A program made the position numbers and the translations under genes. This document shows, in pieces, positions 21,150-30,512 of a DNA stretch of 56,446 nucleotides. How positions within the stretch are numbered: the stretch's first letter is position 1; each line of letters opens with the position of its first letter. Under the pieces are notes generated by a model. The model did not search any database. It was not told the origin of the DNA and was given only the letters and a program-made list of their open reading frames with translations. Source of the stretch: an uncultured Oscillospiraceae bacterium (GTDB lineage: Bacteria > Bacillota > Clostridia > Oscillospirales > Oscillospiraceae). The stretch lies in NCBI GenBank assembly GCA_947624585.1, contig CANQKZ010000003.1:1-56446 (forward strand), read 5' to 3'.

Positions 21150-21581
21150 TTATCCGTAGTTCTCCGCGAGGAATCTCAGCGCCGCAAGGTAGCCCTCGAA
21201 GCCCAGGCCCTTGACGGTTTTGACAACAGCCTCACGGATATAGCTCACCTTTCGGAACTCGTCTCTCGCGTCCGGGTCGGAGATGTGGACCTCCACGGTG
21301 GGGATGGAGACGGCCTTCACCGCGTCCAAAAGGGCCACGGAGGTGTGGGTATAGGCGCCGGGGTTTATAACGATGCCGTCCGCCCGGCCGTAGGCGCCCT
21401 GGATGGCGTCCACAAGGGCGCCCTCGTGGTTGGACTGGAAAAATTCCACATCCACCCCCAGCCGGTCCGCTTCGGCCCGGATGAGGGCGACGAGGTCGGC
21501 GTAGGTGCTCTTTCCGTAGATGCCCGGCTCCCGGATGCCCAGCATATTCAGGTTGGGTCCGTTAAGTACGAGTATTTTCAC
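21150..21581 (-). CDS. aroQ: Type II 3-dehydroquinate dehydratase
   Basis: Third shikimate-pathway step: 3-dehydroquinate to 3-dehydroshikimate. It has 143 residues, the normal type II length. Active-site motifs: NGPNLNMLGIREPGIYG (with the catalytic Tyr), QSNHEGALVD, NPGAYTHTSVA and VEVHISD (catalytic His). I use a GTG start (MKILVLNGPN) eight bases after GGAG. A GTG three codons upstream overlaps the ribosome site. It overlaps the aroE-aroK end and is the last biosynthetic gene of the aro operon. Confidence 0.95.
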   Translation of the reverse strand: MKILVLNGPNLNMLGIREPGIYGKSTYADLVALIRAEADRLGVDVEFFQSNHEGALVDAIQGAYGRADGIVINPGAYTHTSVALLDAVKAVSIPTVEVHISDPDARDEFRKVSYIREAVVKTVKGLGFEGYLAALRFLAENYG

Positions 21582-22806
21582 AAAAATCACTCCAGATTTT
21601 GTCGGCGGCCTCCTCTAAGGTGCCGTCGTTTTTTACGGTGGCGTCGGCGAACCTTGCGTAGAGCGGGTCGCGCTTTTCGAAGAGCGCCCGGAGGCCCTCG
21701 ATGCCCCCCGCCGACAGGGGGCGGCCCCGGGTGGACAGCTCCTCCAGCGCCCGGTCGATGCGGTAGACGCGCCCGGACTGGTGCAGGATGGGGTAATTCT
21801 CCGGCACGGTGACGCATCCGCCGCCGGTGGTGATGATCTTGCCGGTGCCCGCCGCCATCTCCCGCATGACCTCCGTCTCCAGCCGCCGGAACTCCGCCTC
21901 GCCGCTGTCGGTGATGATGTCCCCGGGCCGCTTGCCGGTGCGAAGGGCGATTGCCCGATCCACGTCCAGAAGCTCCCGGCCCGTCTTTCGCGCCAGGAAT
22001 TTGCCGATGGTGGTCTTCCCGGAGCCGGGCATCCCGATGAGGACGATGTTGGTCACGTCCCGGCGGAGCCTGTCCGCGATCTCCCGAATGCGTCCGTCCT
22101 CGATGCGCTTGCCGAAGAAGTGCTCCTCGGCAAGCTTGGCCTGGGCCACCAGCATGGACAGTCCCCCGGCGCGGGGGATGCCCAGCTCCTCCGCCTGCAT
22201 GAGAAGGCCCGTGCGCAGAGGGTTGAACACCACGTCCATGACCCCCGAAAGCTTCGGGAAGGCCCGCAGATTCACGGGCTGTGCGGGGCAGTTGGGGCTC
22301 ATGCCCACGGGGGTGGTGTTGATGAGGATTTCCGCGTCCGCGTTTTTTTCCAGATTCCCGTAGTTGTTCTCCCCGGAGCGGGAAATGACGGTGATCTCCC
22401 CGGCCCCCAGGGCCCTTGCCGCCGCCGAAGCGGTGTGGGAGGTGCCGCCGGAGCCCAGGATGACCACCTTCCGGCCCGTGAGGTCCATCCCCGCCTCCCG
22501 AAGGGCGTACTCCAGGCCGTACTTGTCCGTGTTCCAGCCGTAGAGCCTCCCCCGGCGGTTAACGACGGTGTTGATGGCGCCGATCTCCCTGGCCGCCGGG
22601 TCCACTACGTCCACAAATTCAAACACGTCCCGCTTGTAGGGGATGGTCACGTTCACCGCGCCGAGATCGGGGCGGCGCAGAAACGCCCCCAGCTCCTCCG
22701 GCTCCAGCTCATAGAGCCGGTAGCCCCGGCACCCCAGCATGGAGTGTATGGCGGGGGAATGGCTGTGGCCCAGCTTCCGGCCCAAAAGCCCGTAGATCCT
22801 TCTCAT
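21562..22806 (-). CDS. aroEK: Shikimate dehydrogenase-shikimate kinase fusion (AroE-AroK)
   Basis: A 414-residue bifunctional enzyme for two consecutive steps, 3-dehydroshikimate to shikimate to shikimate 3-phosphate. Residues 1-250 are AroE: catalytic Lys in NVTIPYKRDV, Asp in NTDKYG, nucleotide loop VILGSGGTSHTA. Residues 251-414 are AroK: P-loop GMPGSGKTTIGK near 257, the substrate-binding Asp in LLDVDRAI, and TTGGGCV. No stop or frameshift separates them, so this is a genuine fusion. The nucleotide loop is GSGGTS rather than the usual GAGGA form. The two steps are normally done by separate proteins. Confidence 0.95.
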   Translation of the reverse strand: MRRIYGLLGRKLGHSHSPAIHSMLGCRGYRLYELEPEELGAFLRRPDLGAVNVTIPYKRDVFEFVDVVDPAAREIGAINTVVNRRGRLYGWNTDKYGLEYALREAGMDLTGRKVVILGSGGTSHTASAAARALGAGEITVISRSGENNYGNLEKNADAEILINTTPVGMSPNCPAQPVNLRAFPKLSGVMDVVFNPLRTGLLMQAEELGIPRAGGLSMLVAQAKLAEEHFFGKRIEDGRIREIADRLRRDVTNIVLIGMPGSGKTTIGKFLARKTGRELLDVDRAIALRTGKRPGDIITDSGEAEFRRLETEVMREMAAGTGKIITTGGGCVTVPENYPILHQSGRVYRIDRALEELSTRGRPLSAGGIEGLRALFEKRDPLYARFADATVKNDGTLEEAADKIWSDFCENTRT

Positions 22807-22839: not shown

Positions 22840-23982
22840 TTATATCTCCTGGTAGTTCCCCAGATACCGCAAAGACCGGCAGGAGTGCTCCAGGCTCTCC
22901 AGCATATCCACCACCTTCGGGTCGCGGACGCTGGCCTCGATCTCGAAGAAGAAGAGGAATTCAAAGTCGTGTCCCACCATGGGGCAGGACTCCAGCTTGA
23001 TCAGGTTCAGCTCCAGGGCGGAGATGTGGCTCAAGACATCGTACAGCGCCCCGGGCCGGTGCTCGCAGGAGAGCACCAGGGTGATGCGGTTGGCGCCGGG
23101 GTAGACCACCGGCTTTTTGGCGATGCAGATGAAGCGGGTGTAGTTGTTGTCGGAGTTCTGGATGCGCCCGCAGCTCAGGGATTCCAGCCCGTACAGCTCC
23201 GCGCAGTTGGAGCTTGAAAGCGCCGCCACGGACCTGTCCGGGCACTGGGCCACGTATTTGGCGGCCACGGCGGTGTTGTCCATCTTCTCCACCTCCACCC
23301 TGTCGCCCAGGGATTTGAGGAACTCACTGCACTGGCCCAGGGCCTGCTCGTGGGAGACGATCTTCTTGATCTCGGAGAGCTTCACGCCCGGCTTGACCAG
23401 CAGCTCGTGGGAGATGCAAAGCCGCTCGGAGCGGACGATGGAGACATCCTTCACCTGGAGAAGGTCGTACACCGCCCGGACGGAGCCGTTGGAGCTGTTC
23501 TCGATGGGCACGATACCGAACTGGCAAAGCCCGCTCTGGACCGCGTCGAAGACGGCCTCGAAGGTCTTCACATAGAGGATATTGCCCCTGGGAAACATCC
23601 GGTCGGCGGCCATCTGGGAGTAGGCCCCCTCCACGCCCTGGCAGGCGATGAGGCCGTTTTCCGGGAACAGCTCCGGCACGTCCACAAGGGACTTTTCGAT
23701 GAAGGAGCGCACGTTGGAGCCGGTGGTACGGTACTTGCGCTGATAGGTGCGGCTCAGCTCAAAGACCGTGGAGAAGAGCCGGTGGGTGTACAGATCGTAC
23801 TCCCCGGACTGCTCCGAGACCCGCCGCAGGATCTCCCGCTCCCGCTCCTTGTTGAGGATGGGCAGGCCGTCCCGGGCCTTCACCTGGGCGACGCCCCTGG
23901 AAAGCTCCATGCGCTCTAAGAAGAGCTTCAGGATCTCCGCGTCCACCCTGTCGATTTTCTCTCTGATTTCAGGCAGTTCCAT
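22840..23982 (-). CDS. pheA: Chorismate mutase / prephenate dehydratase (P-protein)
   Basis: Makes phenylpyruvate from chorismate in two steps, committing flux to phenylalanine. It has 380 residues. The AroQ-type chorismate mutase helices occupy about 1-90 (IREKIDRVDAEILKLFLERM). The prephenate dehydratase occupies about 110-290 (GVEGAYSQMAAD, ENSSNGSVRAVYDLL, catalytic TRF in NNYTRFICIAKK). A C-terminal ACT domain for Phe feedback inhibition occupies about 295-370 (HRPGALYDVLSHISALELN, LESCP). Full length and intact. It starts one base after the aroC stop. Confidence 0.96.
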   Translation of the reverse strand: MELPEIREKIDRVDAEILKLFLERMELSRGVAQVKARDGLPILNKEREREILRRVSEQSGEYDLYTHRLFSTVFELSRTYQRKYRTTGSNVRSFIEKSLVDVPELFPENGLIACQGVEGAYSQMAADRMFPRGNILYVKTFEAVFDAVQSGLCQFGIVPIENSSNGSVRAVYDLLQVKDVSIVRSERLCISHELLVKPGVKLSEIKKIVSHEQALGQCSEFLKSLGDRVEVEKMDNTAVAAKYVAQCPDRSVAALSSSNCAELYGLESLSCGRIQNSDNNYTRFICIAKKPVVYPGANRITLVLSCEHRPGALYDVLSHISALELNLIKLESCPMVGHDFEFLFFFEIEASVRDPKVVDMLESLEHSCRSLRYLGNYQEI

Positions 23983-23983
23983 T

Positions 23984-25063
23984 TTATTTCCCCTCCATAA
24001 GTATATCCAGTATTGTAAAGGCGGTCACGGCCTCGATGACCGGCACCGCGCGGATGGCGACGCATGGGTCGTGTCTCCCCTTGATCTCCAGCTCCGCCGG
24101 TTCCATCCGGGAGACGCTGACCGTCCTCTGCTTGCGCCCGATGGACGGCGTGGGCTTCATGGCGCACCGGAGGACCACCGGCATGCCCGTGGTGATCCCG
24201 CCGACGATGCCGCCCGCGTCGTTTTTGGCGGTCCTGATCTTGCCGTCCTCGATGACATAGGGGTCGTTGTGCTCAGAGCCGCGCATTTTCGCCGCCGCGA
24301 AGCCCGCGCCGAACTCCACGCCCTTCACCGCCGGGACGCCGAAGAGGGCGGCGGCAAGGCGGTTCTCGATCCCGTCGAACATGGGGGACCCCACCCCCGC
24401 CGGGAGGCCCACGGCGGCGCACTCGATGACGCCGCCCACGCTGTCGGCCTCGCTTCTCGCCGCTTCGACGGCGGCGGCCATCCGCGCTCCGGCCCCGTCG
24501 TCCAGCACCGGGAGAGATTTGGCGGCCACGGCCTCGAAGAGCTCCCGGGAGGGCCAAAGGGGGAAGGGCTCGTCCCGCTCGTTCTCAATAGAGAGCAGGT
24601 GCGCCCCCACGAAAATTCCTTTTTCAGCCAAAATCTGCTTCGCGATGCCCCCGGCGATGCACAGCGGCGCCGTGAGACGCCCGGAGAAGTGGCCGGAGCC
24701 CCGCATATCCACCGCCTCGCCGTAGCGCATCCGGGCGGTGTAGTCCGCATGGGAGGGCCGGGGCAGGTCGGTGAGGTTGGCGTAGTCCCCGCTGCGCTGG
24801 TCCGTGTTCTCGATGACGGCGCACAGGGGCGACCCGGCGGTGACGCCGTCCACAAGGCCGGAGAGAAACACGGGCCTGTCGTCCTCCCGGCGCTGGGTGG
24901 AGAGGCGCGAGGTCCCCGGCTTGCGGCGGCACATGAATCTGTACAGTTCCTCCCCGTCTATGGTGACGCCCGCCGGGAGGCCGTCCATCACGAGGCCGAT
25001 GGCCCTGCCGTGGGACTGGCCGAAGACGGAAATTTTCAGCTTGTGACCGGTTTCAGAGGACAT
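23984..25063 (-). CDS. aroC: Chorismate synthase
   Basis: Last step of the common pathway: EPSP to chorismate, an FMN-dependent anti-elimination. It has 359 residues. Family signatures: GQSHGRAIGLVMDGLPAG at the N-terminus, RRKPGTSRLSTQRREDD and GSGHFSGRLTAPLCIAGGIA. The C-terminal RHDPCVAIRAVPVIEAV is complete. The start at MSSETGHKLK follows GGAGG at an 8-base spacing and lies inside the aroA end (11-base overlap), implying coupling. Confidence 0.97.
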   Translation of the reverse strand: MSSETGHKLKISVFGQSHGRAIGLVMDGLPAGVTIDGEELYRFMCRRKPGTSRLSTQRREDDRPVFLSGLVDGVTAGSPLCAVIENTDQRSGDYANLTDLPRPSHADYTARMRYGEAVDMRGSGHFSGRLTAPLCIAGGIAKQILAEKGIFVGAHLLSIENERDEPFPLWPSRELFEAVAAKSLPVLDDGAGARMAAAVEAARSEADSVGGVIECAAVGLPAGVGSPMFDGIENRLAAALFGVPAVKGVEFGAGFAAAKMRGSEHNDPYVIEDGKIRTAKNDAGGIVGGITTGMPVVLRCAMKPTPSIGRKQRTVSVSRMEPAELEIKGRHDPCVAIRAVPVIEAVTAFTILDILMEGK

Positions 25064-26267
25064 CCGCGATCCCTCCAAGTCTTCTGTACTCGTCAAAGAA
25101 GGTGGGGTAGGACTTCTCCACCGCCTCCGCCCCCAGGATGGTCACGGGGCCGTCGGCGCGGGTTGCCAAAATCGCCGCCGCCATGACGATCCGGTGGTCG
25201 TTGGCCCCGTCCACGGTGCAGGATCGGATCCTGTCCGTGCCGGTGACGGCGAGGCTGTCCGGGCCCTCCCGGCACTCCACGCCGAATGAGCGGAGCATAT
25301 TTGCCGTGGCCGTTATGCGGTCCGACTCCTTCATGCGCAGACGGGCGGCGTTGACGAACCGGGTGACCTGACCGTATCTGCCGCTGGACGAGCCGTTCGC
25401 CGTCCCGTAGGAGCGTATCGCCGCGGCCGCGGCCATGGGAGGCAGGAGGTCCGGGGTCTGGGACATATCATATTCCGCCTCGGGCGCCCGGTCGTAGAGC
25501 ATATTGCGCAGCCAGCGGTGAATGACCCTGTCCCCCTGGAGGGAGCTGAAATTGAGTCCCCGGAGATCGATATTGGGGTGGTCGAAAAAGAAGGGTATGT
25601 CCCAGAAGGCCGCCTGGGACCAGTCGGCCTCCACCGCGTAGTCACAGGGCGCGTACCTCTGATTTCCAGGGACGGAAAAGGCGGTAAAATCGCGGTTTTC
25701 TACAGAGATTCCGTACTTTTTCAGCACATCGACCGTTATGGTCACGTACTCCCGGCTCTGGAGCGGGGAGGTGACGCGGATCTCCGAGTCCCCCGGAAGA
25801 AGCGGGAGGGCGTAGAGAAGTCCGGTGACGAACTGGCTGGACACATCCCCCGGAAGCTCATAGACGCCGGGGGTCAGCGCGCCCATCACGTCCAGTTCCT
25901 GATATTTCTGCTCGAAGTGGACGCCGATCTTTCGGAAGATCTCAAAATACGGCTCCTGGGGCCTCTGCATCAGCCGCCCCCGGCCTGTGAATTTGGCCCC
26001 GCCCCGCAGGACCAGGGAGAGGGGGATGAGGAACCGGAGGGTGGACCCGGACTCGCCGCAGTCCAGCACCGGGAAGCCGTCGGAGATGGTGAAAAGCGCG
26101 TCGAGACACGCCGCCGTGGCGGCGATGTCCTTCGACTCTGCAAGGCCCGTCAGCCTCCCCTCCGCCCGGGCCAGACGCGCCGCGATCAGCGCCCGGTGGG
26201 ACAGGGACTTGGAGGGCGGCGGCGTCACGCTGCCCCGGAGCGCGTGGGGTGTGATGCGTATGTCCAT
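25053..26267 (-). CDS. aroA: EPSP synthase (3-phosphoshikimate 1-carboxyvinyltransferase)
   Basis: Joins shikimate 3-phosphate and PEP to give EPSP. It has 404 residues. Substrate-binding motifs are present: PPSKSLSHRALIAARLA at the N-terminus, DCGESGSTLRFLIPL, and near the C-terminus RLRMKESDRITATANML and DGANDHRIVMAAAI. The phosphoenolpyruvate loop that usually reads LGNAGTA is replaced by ..CGESGST, seen in class II-like and other variant enzymes. The start follows GGGAGG. It lies two bases after aroB. Confidence 0.96.
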   Translation of the reverse strand: MDIRITPHALRGSVTPPPSKSLSHRALIAARLARAEGRLTGLAESKDIAATAACLDALFTISDGFPVLDCGESGSTLRFLIPLSLVLRGGAKFTGRGRLMQRPQEPYFEIFRKIGVHFEQKYQELDVMGALTPGVYELPGDVSSQFVTGLLYALPLLPGDSEIRVTSPLQSREYVTITVDVLKKYGISVENRDFTAFSVPGNQRYAPCDYAVEADWSQAAFWDIPFFFDHPNIDLRGLNFSSLQGDRVIHRWLRNMLYDRAPEAEYDMSQTPDLLPPMAAAAAIRSYGTANGSSSGRYGQVTRFVNAARLRMKESDRITATANMLRSFGVECREGPDSLAVTGTDRIRSCTVDGANDHRIVMAAAILATRADGPVTILGAEAVEKSYPTFFDEYRRLGGIADVL

Positions 26268-26269
26268 GG

Positions 26270-27352
26270 TCACCTCCCGGCCGTTTTGGCCATCAGCTCC
26301 AGCACGTCTTCTTTGGGGAGCTTCAGGGGCCGAACACAGCCGATCTTCTCCAACAAAATCAGCGTCACGCTGTCCCCGGCGCTTTTTTTGTCGATGCCCA
26401 CGGCCTTTTCGATGTGGGCGAAATCGCAGTCGATATGCGTGGGCAGGCCCAGGGGGGCCAGGACCTCCGCGATTCTCTCCGGCACGTCCGGTTCCGTGAC
26501 GCCCAGCTCCGCGCCCAGCCTCGCCGCCGTCACCATGCCCGCCGCCACGGCCTCGCCGTGGGACCACTTTTCGTAATCGCCCGCCAGCTCGTAGGCGTGG
26601 CCCAGGGTGTGGCCGAAGTTCAGGATCATCCGAAGGCCCGTGTCGTGCTCGTCCTCGTTGACCACCCGCCGCTTGATGTCGCAGCAGGTGTAGAGGATGC
26701 GCCCGATGTCCGCCATGAGCTTGTCCCGCGTGGGGCGTTGGGCCAGGAAGTCGAAGAAATCCGCGTCCCAGATACACCCGTACTTTATGACCTCCGCCAT
26801 ACCGGCCATGAACACCGGCGGGGGCAGAGTGCGAAGCGTCTCCGGGTCCATGAGCACCAGCTTCGGCTGGAAGAAGGTCCCCGCCAGATTTTTCCCCGTC
26901 CCCAGGTCGATGGCCGTCTTGCCGCCCACGGAGGAGTCCACCTGGGAGAGGAGCGTCGTGGGGATCTGCACCAGGTCCACCCCCCGCAGGACGGTGGAGG
27001 CGGCGAATCCCGCCAGATCTCCCGTAACGCCGCCGCCCAGGGCCACCACCCCGTCGGTGCGGGTGATACCGTGGGCCGTCATCCACTCCCACAGCGCCAC
27101 GAGATTTTCGGCGCTCTTGGAGGTCTCCCCGGCGGGGATCACGTGGGTGTGGACCTCAAAGCTCTCGATCTCCAGCGACGCCACAAGCCGCGCCCCGTAG
27201 AGGGGGGAGACGTTGGAGTCGGTGACGACGAAAAGCCGCTTTGCCTTCGGCAGGGCCGCCTTGATGTGCTTGCCCGCGCCGTCCAGAAGGCCGGGGGCAA
27301 TGAGGATGTCGTACCCCGCGCCCGCGTCCACATGGAGCTTTCTCTCTTCCAT
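26270..27352 (-). CDS. aroB: 3-Dehydroquinate synthase
   Basis: Second pathway step: cyclises DAHP to 3-dehydroquinate, NAD- and metal-dependent. It has 360 residues. Visible signatures are ALGGGVTGDLAGFAAST and TTLLSQVDSSVGGKTAIDLG for the nucleotide and substrate sites, and the metal ligands in the MAEVIKYG region and FGHTLGHAYE. The start has GGCGGGAGG upstream and lies one base after the tyrA stop. Confidence 0.97.
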   Translation of the reverse strand: MEERKLHVDAGAGYDILIAPGLLDGAGKHIKAALPKAKRLFVVTDSNVSPLYGARLVASLEIESFEVHTHVIPAGETSKSAENLVALWEWMTAHGITRTDGVVALGGGVTGDLAGFAASTVLRGVDLVQIPTTLLSQVDSSVGGKTAIDLGTGKNLAGTFFQPKLVLMDPETLRTLPPPVFMAGMAEVIKYGCIWDADFFDFLAQRPTRDKLMADIGRILYTCCDIKRRVVNEDEHDTGLRMILNFGHTLGHAYELAGDYEKWSHGEAVAAGMVTAARLGAELGVTEPDVPERIAEVLAPLGLPTHIDCDFAHIEKAVGIDKKSAGDSVTLILLEKIGCVRPLKLPKEDVLELMAKTAGR

Positions 27353-27353
27353 C

Positions 27354-28193
27354 TCAGGTCCCTCCCGCCGTCGTTTTCAGCTCGCGGCCCTCCCGGAGCA
27401 GCTCCCGGAGCGTCTCCCGGTCCCGGCCCGCGATGGCGTCCCGGTACTCGGTGAGATGCCCGATCAGCGTGTCAAGCTCCCCGGTGAGGAAGTCCGCGTC
27501 CGCCAGAAAGAGCTGGGTCCACATATTCTCGTCCAGATACGCCACCCTGGTCATGTCCCGGAAGGACCCGGCGGAGAAGCCCATGTGGGTCTGGGCCGTG
27601 GGGGACTTGACAAAGGCGGAGCTGGTGATGTGGCACAGCTGCGAGGTGTAGGATATGATCCGGTCGTGCTCCGCCGGGGTGGAGTAGGTGATGGAGCCGA
27701 ATCCCAGGGACAGGAAAAAGGATTTCAGCCGCTCCAGGAGCGGTGCGTCCGCCCGCTCGTCCGGCGTCAGGATCATGGACGCCCCGGCGAACAGGTAGGC
27801 GGCGGAGTTTTTGAATCCCCCGTGCTCCTTGCCCGCCATGGGGTGCCCGCCCACGTAGGCAAAGCCGTACTTCTCCGAAAGGGGCCGCAGCGCCTCCACG
27901 ATGAGCCGCTTGACGCCGCACAGGTCCACTAAGACCGCCGTTTTCGGGATGCGCGGGGCGTTCTCCTCCGCCCAGCCGATCAGCGCCTCGGGAGGCAGGG
28001 CGGCCAGGACAAGGTCGCACTCTCCGATGCTCCGCCCGTCCAGCACGTTGTCGATGGCCCCGGAGGCGAAGGCCAGCGCCATGGTGTCGGAGTTGAGGTC
28101 CGCCCCCAGGACCTGATGGTCTGTGTGAAATTTGATGGCCTTGGCCATGGACCCCCCGATGAGGCCCAGGCCCACGATGCCGATGGTTGACAT
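27354..28193 (-). CDS. tyrA: Prephenate dehydrogenase
   Basis: Oxidises prephenate to 4-hydroxyphenylpyruvate for tyrosine. It has 279 residues. An N-terminal Rossmann motif (GIVGLGLIGGSMAKAI), then the substrate region (GGHPMAGKEHGGF), the conserved HDRIISYTSQLCH and the helical C-terminal domain. There is no ACT regulatory domain, so feedback would act by another route or at transcription. The start MSTIGIVG has AGAAAGGG about 12 bases upstream, a loose spacing. It follows aroF by 28 bases. Confidence 0.95.
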   Translation of the reverse strand: MSTIGIVGLGLIGGSMAKAIKFHTDHQVLGADLNSDTMALAFASGAIDNVLDGRSIGECDLVLAALPPEALIGWAEENAPRIPKTAVLVDLCGVKRLIVEALRPLSEKYGFAYVGGHPMAGKEHGGFKNSAAYLFAGASMILTPDERADAPLLERLKSFFLSLGFGSITYSTPAEHDRIISYTSQLCHITSSAFVKSPTAQTHMGFSAGSFRDMTRVAYLDENMWTQLFLADADFLTGELDTLIGHLTEYRDAIAGRDRETLRELLREGRELKTTAGGT

Positions 28194-28221
28194 GATGAAA
28201 CCAGCCCTTTCTGTAAAAGGA

Positions 28222-29232
28222 TCACTTCTGCTCGGAGACAACCTGGTGGATCGCTCTCAGCTTGTTCGCCAGATGGTCGAACACCGAGGGCTTCAAAGAC
28301 TGGGGTCCGTCGCACATGGCGTGGGCCGGGTCGTTGTGGACCTCGATGATGAGTCCGTCGGCCCCCGCCGCCACGGCGGCGCAGGACAGCGGGTCCACCA
28401 GCTCCCACTTCCCGGCGGAGTGGCTGGGGTCGATGATGACGGGCAGGTGGGAGAGCTTTTTCAGCACCGGGATGGCGCTGATGTCCAACGTGTTCCGGGT
28501 GTACGTCTCAAAGGTGCGGATGCCCCGCTCGCAGAGGATGACCTTCTGGTTGCCCCCGGCCATGATGTACTCGGCGCTCATCAGAAGCTCCTCATAGGTG
28601 TTGGCAAGGCCGCGCTTTAAGAGAATGGGCTTGTCGATGGTGCCCAAAATCTTCAAAAGCTCGAAGTTCTGCATATTTCTCGCGCCCACCTGGATGATGT
28701 CCACGTCCTCGAAGAGGGGCAGATGCTGGGCGTCCATGAGCTCGGTGACGATGGGCAGGCCGGTGACCTCCCGGGCAAGCTTGAGAAGACGGATGCCCTC
28801 GCCGTGGAGGCCCTGGAAGGAGTAGGGAGAGGTGCGGGGCTTGAAGGCGCCGCCGCGCAGGATAGTGGCGCCGCTGGCCTTCACCGCCTGAGCCACCTCG
28901 ATGATCTGGGCCTCGTTCTCCACAGAGCAGGGCCCCGCGATGAGGGTCAGGTTCCCGCCGCCGATCTTCGTGTTCCCCACCTCGATGACCGTGTCGTCCG
29001 GGTGGAACTTGCGGTTGGCGTTCTTGTAGGGCTCCTGGATGCGCTTCACGTCCTCCACGATGTCCAGGGCCAGCAGCAGGTCCATGTCCAGCTTGGAGGT
29101 GTCGCCCACCAGGCCCAGCACCGTCTGATGCTCGCCGATGGAGGTGTGGATGTCGATGCCCTTGCTTCTCAGCCAGTTCATCAAAGAGTCCACCTGGACC
29201 TGATTTGGATTTTCTTTCAGAATGACGATCAT
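28222..29232 (-). CDS. aroF: 3-Deoxy-D-arabino-heptulosonate 7-phosphate synthase (AroF, type I-beta)
   Basis: Entry step of the pathway: PEP plus erythrose 4-phosphate to DAHP. It has 336 residues, with an N-terminal ferredoxin-like regulatory domain of about 70 residues (MIVILKENPNQVQVDSLMNW) fused to the KDPS/DAHPS barrel. Barrel motifs include AGPCSVENEAQ, RGGAFKPRTSPYSFQG, VGARNMQNFELL and VIIDPSHSAGKWELV. The regulatory domain is the type that senses Tyr or Phe in Thermotoga and related enzymes. First structural gene of the operon, directly behind the attenuator, with AAGGAG upstream. Confidence 0.97.
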   Translation of the reverse strand: MIVILKENPNQVQVDSLMNWLRSKGIDIHTSIGEHQTVLGLVGDTSKLDMDLLLALDIVEDVKRIQEPYKNANRKFHPDDTVIEVGNTKIGGGNLTLIAGPCSVENEAQIIEVAQAVKASGATILRGGAFKPRTSPYSFQGLHGEGIRLLKLAREVTGLPIVTELMDAQHLPLFEDVDIIQVGARNMQNFELLKILGTIDKPILLKRGLANTYEELLMSAEYIMAGGNQKVILCERGIRTFETYTRNTLDISAIPVLKKLSHLPVIIDPSHSAGKWELVDPLSCAAVAAGADGLIIEVHNDPAHAMCDGPQSLKPSVFDHLANKLRAIHQVVSEQK

Positions 29233-29255
29233 GATGAATTACTCCTTTTTGGCCC

Positions 29256-29290
29256 AAAAAATTCCCGCAGCCGGTCTGGCCGCGGGAATC
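29256..29290 (-). terminator. Attenuator terminator of the aro operon, with competing antiterminator
   Basis: In the minus-strand transcript ATTCCCGCGGCC pairs with GGCTGCGGGAAT, followed by TTTTTT, 23 bases before the aroF start. The left arm and loop (CGGCCAGACCG, 29272-29282) can instead pair over 11 bp with CGGTTTGGCTG (29324-29334), just after the leader-peptide stop codon. That creates mutually exclusive terminator and antiterminator forms. Confidence 0.8.
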
Positions 29291-29335
29291 AAGGCGTTCA
29301 AATATTTGCCCTTCGCACCTTTTCAGCCAAACCGA

Positions 29336-29410
29336 TCAAGCCTTACCGAAATAAAAGGTAAAGCTGAAGGTATAGGCGAAAAAGCTGTTTGTCGGCGCGG
29401 ACTTTTCCAT
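29336..29410 (-). CDS. Phe/Tyr-rich leader peptide of the aro operon
   Basis: A 24-codon reading frame lies between the operon promoter and the attenuator. It has a ribosome site (GTGAGGTG, four bases before ATG). The middle reads FFAYTFSFTFYF: eight of twelve consecutive residues are Phe or Tyr (six Phe, two Tyr). It ends in TGA directly before the antiterminator strand. This is the layout of pheA/pheST-type attenuation leaders: a ribosome stalled at the aromatic codons for lack of charged tRNA would leave the antiterminator free to form, and smooth translation would favour the terminator. The frame is too short for routine gene finding. Function is inferred from composition and position. 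Confidence 0.8.
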   Translation of the reverse strand: MEKSAPTNSFFAYTFSFTFYFGKA

Positions 29411-29439
29411 GCTGCACCTCACGGGCTGTTATTGGTGAC

Positions 29440-29468
29440 ATCATATCACTTCACCGCCCAAAAGACAA
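29440..29468 (-). promoter_or_regulatory. aro operon promoter
   Basis: On the minus strand TTGTCT, a 17-base spacer and TATGAT, about 30 bases upstream of the leader-peptide start. Confidence 0.7.
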
Positions 29469-29539
29469 GTTGGCAAATTGCACAAAATGTGTGTTTTTCA
29501 AAGAAAACCGCGCTTTGCCCCCGGCGCGCAATTTCACTA

Positions 29540-29568
29540 TTGTCAAATCCGCGCCGGTGGTGTATGAT
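29540..29568 (+). promoter_or_regulatory. degV promoter
   Basis: TTGTCA, a 17-base spacer and TATGAT, divergent from the aro promoter. An inverted GGCGCG..CGCGCC pair surrounds the -35 region. Confidence 0.7.
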
Positions 29569-29624
29569 ATGATTTAATGTGTCGATTCAGCGCGGCGGCG
29601 CCGCGCGGAGAGGAAGAGTGTCCG

Positions 29625-30512
29625 ATGTTTCAAATACTGTCTGACGGAAGCTGCGACCTGACGGCGGAGCAGCTGAGGGAGGCCGGGCTGGAGATCATCC
29701 CCTACTACGTGTCCCTGGACGGGGAGACGTACCTGAAGGAGGCGGAGGAGCTGGATGTCCGGGAGTTCTACGCCTACTGCGCCGCCCACCCGGAGGTGTT
29801 CCCCAGGACCGCCATGCCCACGGTGCAGGACTACATGACCGCCTTTGAAAGGCACCTGAAAAAGGGGGAGGACGTGCTGTGCTACTGCCTCACCGAGAAG
29901 TTCTCCGGCTCCTTCTCCTGCGCCCGGACGGCGGCGGAGATGCTTCGGGAGACTTACCCGGACCGGAGTATCCTGGCGGTGGACTCCACCCTGGCCACCG
30001 GCCTCCAGGGCCTTCTCCTGCTGGAGCTGTCCCGGTACGCCCGGGAGGGCCACACCCTGGAGGAGACCTACAGGCGCGGGGAGGAGATCAAGCGGTCCGC
30101 CGCCATCTACTTCACCATCGAGAACCTGTCCTACCTGTCCCACGGGGGCCGGATCGGGAAGCTCATGGATATGGCCATGCGGTGCGTGGGGATGACCCCC
30201 ATCATCCGCTTTGGCAGCGGCGAGCTCTATCCCGTGGGCGTCAGCATCGGCCGGAAGAACGCCTTCATCAAGGTGACCCAGGCCGTGGGCAAGCTCATCC
30301 GGCAGGGCGTACTGGACCTGGAGCACTACGCCTTCGCCCTGGGCTGGGGGTACAGCCGGGAGGAGGCGGAGCCCTTCTTCAAGCGGATCCGGGACCTCTT
30401 TACGGAGCGCTTCGGGCGGGCGCCCGATTTCGTCCCCATCCAGATCGGCGCCGCCATCGGCGTCCACACGGGACCCCACCCCATCGGCATGGGTTTCATT
30501 GAAAAAGCGTAA
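29625..30512 (+). CDS. DegV family fatty-acid-binding protein
   Basis: A 295-residue cytoplasmic protein of the DegV/FakB family. FakB members present exogenous fatty acids to the kinase FakA, and fakA is not in this window. The N-terminal signature ILSDGSCDLTAEQLRE, the fatty-acid head-group motif TEKFSGSFSCA and AVDSTLATGLQGLLLLE are present. The start at MFQILSDG follows GAGAGGAAG. A short piece of family B repeat begins on the base after its stop codon. Monocistronic or loosely linked to the chromate transporter genes 46 bases on. Confidence 0.92.
   Translation: MFQILSDGSCDLTAEQLREAGLEIIPYYVSLDGETYLKEAEELDVREFYAYCAAHPEVFPRTAMPTVQDYMTAFERHLKKGEDVLCYCLTEKFSGSFSCARTAAEMLRETYPDRSILAVDSTLATGLQGLLLLELSRYAREGHTLEETYRRGEEIKRSAAIYFTIENLSYLSHGGRIGKLMDMAMRCVGMTPIIRFGSGELYPVGVSIGRKNAFIKVTQAVGKLIRQGVLDLEHYAFALGWGYSREEAEPFFKRIRDLFTERFGRAPDFVPIQIGAAIGVHTGPHPIGMGFIEKA

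Follow-up and report, generated by a model that had tools for sequence, protein, structure and literature searches.

We found that the aroF gene of an uncultured Oscillospiraceae bacterium is preceded by the parts of a leader-peptide attenuator, and sequence comparison together with RNA folding makes it very probable that this region is a ribosome-mediated transcription attenuator sensing charged tRNA-Phe and tRNA-Tyr. In the window (the whole 56,446-nt stretch of DNA that was analyzed), a promoter-like site, a leader ORF, segment 2, a terminator, aroF and further aro/tyr/phe genes follow one another on the minus strand (Table 1). The initial annotation had proposed a promoter, a leader ORF with its stop codon, an antiterminator strand and a terminator, and all of them lie on this strand at the places and in the order that it gave. 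Judged from sequence and modeling, the region combines what such an attenuator should contain, namely a Phe/Tyr-rich ORF, an intrinsic terminator, 1:2, 2:3 and 3:4 pairings that appear mutually exclusive, and a stop codon at which a ribosome would mask segment 2. The comparison with relatives confirmed that the attenuator parts are present and widespread. The analysis established the parts, their order, their conservation, the competing pairings and the predicted dependence on ribosome position.

In the proposed mechanism, transcription would start near 29433 and a ribosome would then translate the leader ORF. With ample Phe and Tyr, the ribosome would arrive at the stop codon and cover segment 2, which would leave the 3:4 pairing to form and transcription to end near 29256. 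Under a shortage of Phe- or Tyr-tRNA, the ribosome would instead stall in the Phe/Tyr run and open the 1:2 hairpin, and the resulting 2:3 pairing would preclude the terminator so that the eight-gene aro/tyr/phe operon is transcribed. With no ribosome on the leader, the 1:2 hairpin is predicted in the window and termination would be the default. Both the termination event itself and a response of transcription to Phe/Tyr supply, which the initial annotation had also expected, are what we infer from this arrangement.

Table 1. Features of the attenuator region and of the downstream genes in the window.
Feature	Position	Strand	Basis
Promoter-like site: -35 TTGTCT (29468-29463), 17-nt spacer, TG-extended -10 TATGAT (29445-29440)	29440..29468	-	Consensus scan
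Shine-Dalgarno-like GAGGTG of the leader ORF	29415..29420	-	Sequence
Leader ORF, 24 codons and stop, MEKSAPTNSFFAYTFSFTFYFGKA	29336..29410	-	ORF and conservation
Phe/Tyr codon run FFAYTFSFTFYF, 8/12 Phe/Tyr; contains much of segment 1	29348..29383	-	Sequence
Apical hairpin of the 1:2 structure, 29365-29357 with 29347-29339	29339..29365	-	Near-invariant in 31 sequences
Leader stop codon, adjoining segment 2	29338-29336	-	Sequence
Segment 2, 11-nt 5' strand of the antiterminator, CGGTTTGGCTG	29324..29334	-	Pairing analysis, folding
Segment 3, 3' strand of the antiterminator, CGGCCAGACCG, inside left arm and loop of the terminator	29272..29282	-	Pairing, folding
Intrinsic terminator (3:4), stem 29290-29260, U-run to 29256	29256..29290	-	Hairpin of -23.6 kcal/mol
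aroF, DAHP synthase	28222..29232	-	Over NCBIfam curated cut-off
tyrA-like, prephenate dehydrogenase	27354..28241	-	E 1.5e-44, under NCBIfam curated cut-offs
aroB, 3-dehydroquinate synthase	26270..27352	-	Over NCBIfam curated cut-off
aroA, EPSP synthase	25053..26270	-	TIGR01356, 265.1 bits (cut-off 287.25)
aroC, chorismate synthase	23984..25096	-	Over NCBIfam curated cut-off
pheA, chorismate mutase-prephenate dehydratase	22840..23982	-	208.9 bits (cut-off 219)
aroE-aroK fusion, shikimate dehydrogenase and shikimate kinase	21562..22806	-	Both halves match, under curated cut-offs
aroQ, type II dehydroquinase	21150..21590	-	Over Pfam cut-off

The promoter-like site, TTGTCTTTTGG, was present in eight of the 11 same-genus loci for which upstream DNA was compared, and absent from L017, L018 and L023. 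Eight aromatic residues in 12 within a short ORF arose in 2 of 1000 shuffles of the window's upstream region. Segment 2 has two possible partners, the leader ORF (1:2) and the left arm of the terminator (2:3), and the latter duplex (29334-29324 with 29282-29272) includes two G-U wobbles. The leader RNA of the window folded with a z-score of -5.05, a stability equaled by none of 200 shuffles, and its minimum-energy fold consists of a long hairpin between the Phe/Tyr codons and segment 2, a small hairpin in the spacer, and the terminator. A simple terminator scan of the region reported no terminator; the likely reason is that the stem continues into the T-run. A degV-family gene on the plus strand (29577-30512) diverges from the aro operon and shares its intergenic region, with a promoter-like TTGTCA/TATGAT on the degV side at 29540-29568.

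All eight ORFs 3' of the leader were identified by profile matches as aro/tyr/phe genes, of which four (the tyrA-like gene, aroA, pheA and aroE-aroK) had strong E-values yet fell short of the NCBIfam cut-offs. The identical eight-gene order was matched in 22 of the 39 leader loci that had at least 8 kb of downstream sequence. We infer that the operon extends over all eight genes and that one leader switch controls them.

Every same-genus relative that allowed a judgment (28 of 28) has the leader upstream of aroF; a peptide search located 20 of them and an aroF search the other eight. The leader-peptide search (E up to 1) matched 26 of 99 genomes, including that of the window, and aroF lay directly 3' of the peptide match in 21 of the 26 (the window and 20 same-genus relatives); the other five matches (L019, L021, L022, L024 and L026) had no adjoining aroF and were dropped. 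Among 13 further same-genus genomes without a peptide-found locus, four had no aroF match and nine carried aroF, with the leader present in eight of these nine and the ninth ending at a contig edge. Gaps in the alignment of the leader ORF were multiples of three in 66/66 cases versus 15/92 downstream, counted per sequence and with many gaps shared, and codon columns 10, 15, 17, 20 and 21 contained only Phe or Tyr. From these frame-keeping gaps and Phe/Tyr-only columns the leader ORF looks translated. A third-position coding signature was absent from the leader alignment, where the three codon positions varied in 15, 17 and 16 of 24 columns, partly because exchanges between Phe and Tyr alter the second position.

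To follow the leader beyond the genus, we gathered 80 loci from genome records by aroF similarity alone, with no selection for a leader, and 79 of them had enough upstream sequence. A short ORF with at least six aromatics in 12 residues within 320 bases upstream of aroF was found in 62 of the 79 loci, compared with 380 of 7900 shuffles (4.8%) and 4/79 on the antisense strand; the remaining 17 loci had no leader by this threshold. The count of 62/79 may be too low because L065, L071 and L043 fall just under the threshold, with ORFs of five aromatics in 12 that are possibly true leaders; one example, from a genome labelled Faecalibacterium, has a run of Tyr alone. In addition, L089 and L096 were scored as misses since their leaders are farther than 320 bases from aroF. 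L072 and L177 were not long enough for a judgment. Phe and Tyr made up 17.9% and 13.6% of the 1798 residues in the 62 leader peptides and Trp only 0.3%, and therefore Phe/Tyr rather than Trp appear to be read. Leader length and stop position differ among loci, and the leader RNA diverges greatly between families while the Phe/Tyr density persists. Carriers of the leader include a cultured relative, Oscillibacter valericigenes Sjm18-20 (L034). A terminator-like hairpin lay 3' of 82 of 83 leaders (21 of the genus and the 62), a count made without a shuffle control; some of the stems (L002, L010 and others) reach into the aroF ribosome-binding site, and the hairpin of L106 looks spurious.

We then analyzed the competing pairings in 81 loci, which exclude L106 and L105, the latter having no terminator. 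The 1:2 pairing between the leader and segment 2 was better than that of shuffled spacers (p≤0.05) in 63/81 loci, the 2:3 pairing between segment 2 and the terminator arm in 30/81, and the two pairings had 5 nt or more of segment 2 in common in 77/81. At the window locus, the 1:2 pairing had a p of 0.005 against shuffled spacers and the 2:3 pairing was insignificant by the same measure (p 0.27). Among 50 diverged loci, segment 2 paired with its cognate terminator arm at -15.0 kcal/mol versus -11.2 kcal/mol with swapped arms, and for 25/50 arms the cognate partner was within the best tenth. In a close alignment of 31 sequences, the 2:3 antiterminator was 94% paired, with weak covariation (three cells changed on both sides versus 1.6 in shuffles) because segment 2 hardly varies there; nine of the 13 terminator base pairs were changed on both sides among the same 31 sequences.

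To model the ribosome, we folded the transcript up to segment 3 together with a ribosome footprint and read out the probability of the 2:3 pairing, P(2:3). In this folding, the window had a P(2:3) of 0.02 for the ribosome-free transcript, 0.97 when a ribosome was stalled in the Phe/Tyr codons and 0.00 when it stood at the stop codon; the corresponding means over the 81 loci were 0.36, 0.74 and 0.07. Switching in the right sense was predicted for 47/81 loci versus 35/243 shuffled-spacer controls, and P(2:3) with the ribosome at the stop codon was below 0.2 in 72/81 loci and not below 0.2 in the remaining nine. In 11 of the 21 genus loci, the window not among them, the predicted P(2:3) already reached 0.5 or more with no ribosome on the transcript; therefore, default termination would not be general. 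The mutual exclusivity claimed by the initial annotation is in line with the pairing statistics, the folding and the ribosome model. The conservation that it had named as decisive was found for the ORF (28/28 in the genus and 62/79 beyond it) and for the two pairings (63/81 and 30/81), and its reading of the region as a Phe/Tyr leader-peptide attenuator gains support from this conservation, the pairings and the predicted effect of the ribosome.

The folded leader may contain one more element. On the minus strand, GCCC at 29426-29423, before the Shine-Dalgarno-like sequence of the leader, could pair with GGGC at 29311-29308, after segment 2, forming a possible stem between the region where ribosomes bind the leader and the base of the 1:2 hairpin. 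In 20 genus loci, 81.7% of the cells of this stem were paired, with seven changes on both sides versus 2.0 in shuffles; slid by +1, the stem had eight cells changed on both sides and only 44.2% paired. Such a stem may limit translation of the leader when no ribosome is present.

T-box riboswitches bind tRNA directly, with no ORF involved. Such an element (RF00230) likewise senses tRNA charging and precedes aroF in other Bacillota; it was absent from the window at the Rfam gathering score and from 29150-29500 at E up to 10. Elsewhere in the genome of the window there were seven T-box matches, two of them over the Rfam cut-off, and three of the seven are followed by valS, leuA and thrS. All 60 of 60 related genomes contained T-boxes (49 over the cut-off). 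In an even draw of genomes from the class, a leader with a terminator preceded aroF in 37 of 80 usable loci. When 52 of these loci were scanned with Rfam models, 20 had a leader with a terminator and 13 a T-box in sense orientation (11 over the cut-off), with an overlap of 0 (P 5.5e-4). With aromatic density alone, 25/52 passed and four of the 25 had a T-box as well (P 0.13), so this exclusion depends on the terminator requirement; with an ATG start required, 20/52 passed and one overlapped a T-box (P 0.0077). The aromatic ORFs of the four overlapping loci (L216, L218, L227 and L228) are taken for chance ORFs over a T-box, and L206 has a T-box only on the opposite strand. In a draw from the phylum, 142 genomes had a match, the own genome included, and upstream DNA was examined in 78; the leader preceded aroF in 12 of the 29 loci nearest to the query (own copy excluded) and in one of 48 more distant loci, and ten of these 48 had sense T-boxes (seven over the cut-off). 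A same-family genome of this draw (G167, locus L129) had no leader by the threshold. The T-box census used covariance models (E up to 0.01) for 100 loci (L181-L280), and L122-L180 were searched by regular expression.

Several other explanations for the region were weighed. The peptide parts SFT and GKA are near-constant in the genus, as would be expected if the nascent peptide, as in TnaC, arrested the ribosome together with free Phe or Tyr and codon starvation played no part. However, the SFT and GKA codons form both arms of the apical hairpin in the 1:2 structure, and the arms AGCTTTACC and GGTAAGGCT are near-invariant in the 31 sequences. In a same-genus genome (G002, locus L281) the leader has another frame 3' of the aromatic run, and the GGTAAGGCTT arm is still kept though GKA is not encoded there, suggesting that what is conserved in this part is the RNA and not the peptide. 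Some leader codons thus seem to be fixed for the sake of the RNA, and across families it is the Phe/Tyr density that is kept rather than one motif; we consider such an arrest very unlikely. The conserved ORF could also be a functional small protein gene with its own terminator. Against this, it is the Phe/Tyr codons and the arms of the RNA that its conservation follows, not a protein motif, five leader peptides had no NCBIfam match, and length and stop position vary, which leaves this explanation hardly credible.

A weak match to a PyrR site (24.5 bits versus a gathering score of 54) would fit an attenuator that binds a ligand or a protein (a riboswitch, or a PyrR- or TRAP-like system), with the ORF being incidental. 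This is highly improbable: no Rfam family matched the window at the gathering score, alignment gaps within the ORF leave the reading frame intact, and the RNA diverges between families while the Phe/Tyr density holds. For 29150-29500, a search against 4227 Rfam families at E up to 10 gave eight matches, none of them to a leader-peptide family. That a T-box reads tRNA-Phe/Tyr directly has some appeal from the 13/52 class loci with a T-box before aroF and from the 60/60 related genomes, but with no match at the window locus it is refuted there and its probability is negligible. T-box, riboswitch and PyrR-like site were each rejected for the locus, since none reached an Rfam gathering score.

In the enterobacterial pheA (pheL) and pheST attenuators, a leader peptide rich in Phe codons is coupled to mutually exclusive 1:2, 2:3 and 3:4 pairings. 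The region described here resembles these systems and the Rfam Phe_leader, as their architecture is generally known, in its aromatic-codon leader peptide and exclusive pairings. Unlike pheA and pheST, it has Phe and Tyr codons jointly and stands before a whole shikimate/Phe/Tyr operon in Clostridia, and unlike the Rfam leader families it was matched by none of them, even at E 10.

Closer to aroF, the uORFC-13-1 motif is described in the accessible text of PMC8632094 as a predicted uORF with Phe codon(s) and a terminator, exclusively upstream of aroF, with 24 representatives from Acholeplasma and environmental sequences only; that text names no antiterminator, Tyr codons or Clostridia, unlike the present case. 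A leader peptide with Phe-Tyr-Phe at the DAHP synthase gene aroF of Corynebacterium glutamicum is given in the available part of PMC4046766, which concerns Actinobacteria and contains no structural or comparative analysis. His leader attenuators in Bacilli (PMC2965389) and in Eubacteriales/Erysipelotrichales (PMC9413887) and a Leu leader attenuator in S. aureus (PMC5794164) are also Firmicutes leader peptides; as far as the accessible portions of these papers extend, they concern other amino acids and operons and fewer taxa. According to a passage of PMC1262725, classical attenuation was at that time not known for any tRNA-synthetase gene of Firmicutes, and the accessible part of PMC11109978 shows no aroF uORF. 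The background statement of the initial annotation, which set this design in Proteobacteria against Firmicutes aromatic genes better known for T-box or TRAP-type control, is partly out of date, given the His and Leu leaders in Bacilli/Clostridia (PMC2965389, PMC9413887, PMC5794164) and the Acholeplasma aroF uORF (PMC8632094), in what is accessible of these sources. The design is already known, because leader attenuators are in print for aroF, His and Leu. Among the matches listed in a search of mainly open-access literature, there was no report of the element in Clostridia, and a report outside these matches may exist. What is added here, by sequence comparison, is a large, structurally defined Phe/Tyr version of the leader in Clostridia that has no Rfam match in the window. 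This would identify how Phe/Tyr synthesis is controlled in a large bacterial group with poor annotation, and would provide a natural series of lineages, some using a leader peptide and others a T-box to control one and the same gene. Furthermore, it is a leader defined by sequence that annotation models miss, both in Rfam (the window) and in NCBIfam (the five peptides).

A Tyr/Phe leader also precedes aroF in two Treponema loci (L085 and L094), one of which (L094) matches all eight genes. Their aroF sequences fall inside a mostly Clostridia clade (support 99/94) in a tree of loci sampled for their similarity to the query; with such sampling the placement suggests, and does not prove, that the leader and operon were transferred to Treponema. 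A broader picture, to which we give slightly less than an even chance, is that an old attenuator is standard for the shikimate operon over much of Clostridia, is used one-or-other with T-boxes, moved with the operon into gut Treponema and includes the extra stem between the ribosome-binding site and the 1:2 hairpin. A second type of leader, with a recurring motif around F-S/T-x-G-F/Y, was seen in other families (L061, L063, L083, L100, L136, L140, L145, L173, L188 and L206), and some leaders of this type contain Trp, such as SWGYYFFSAGYYFW.
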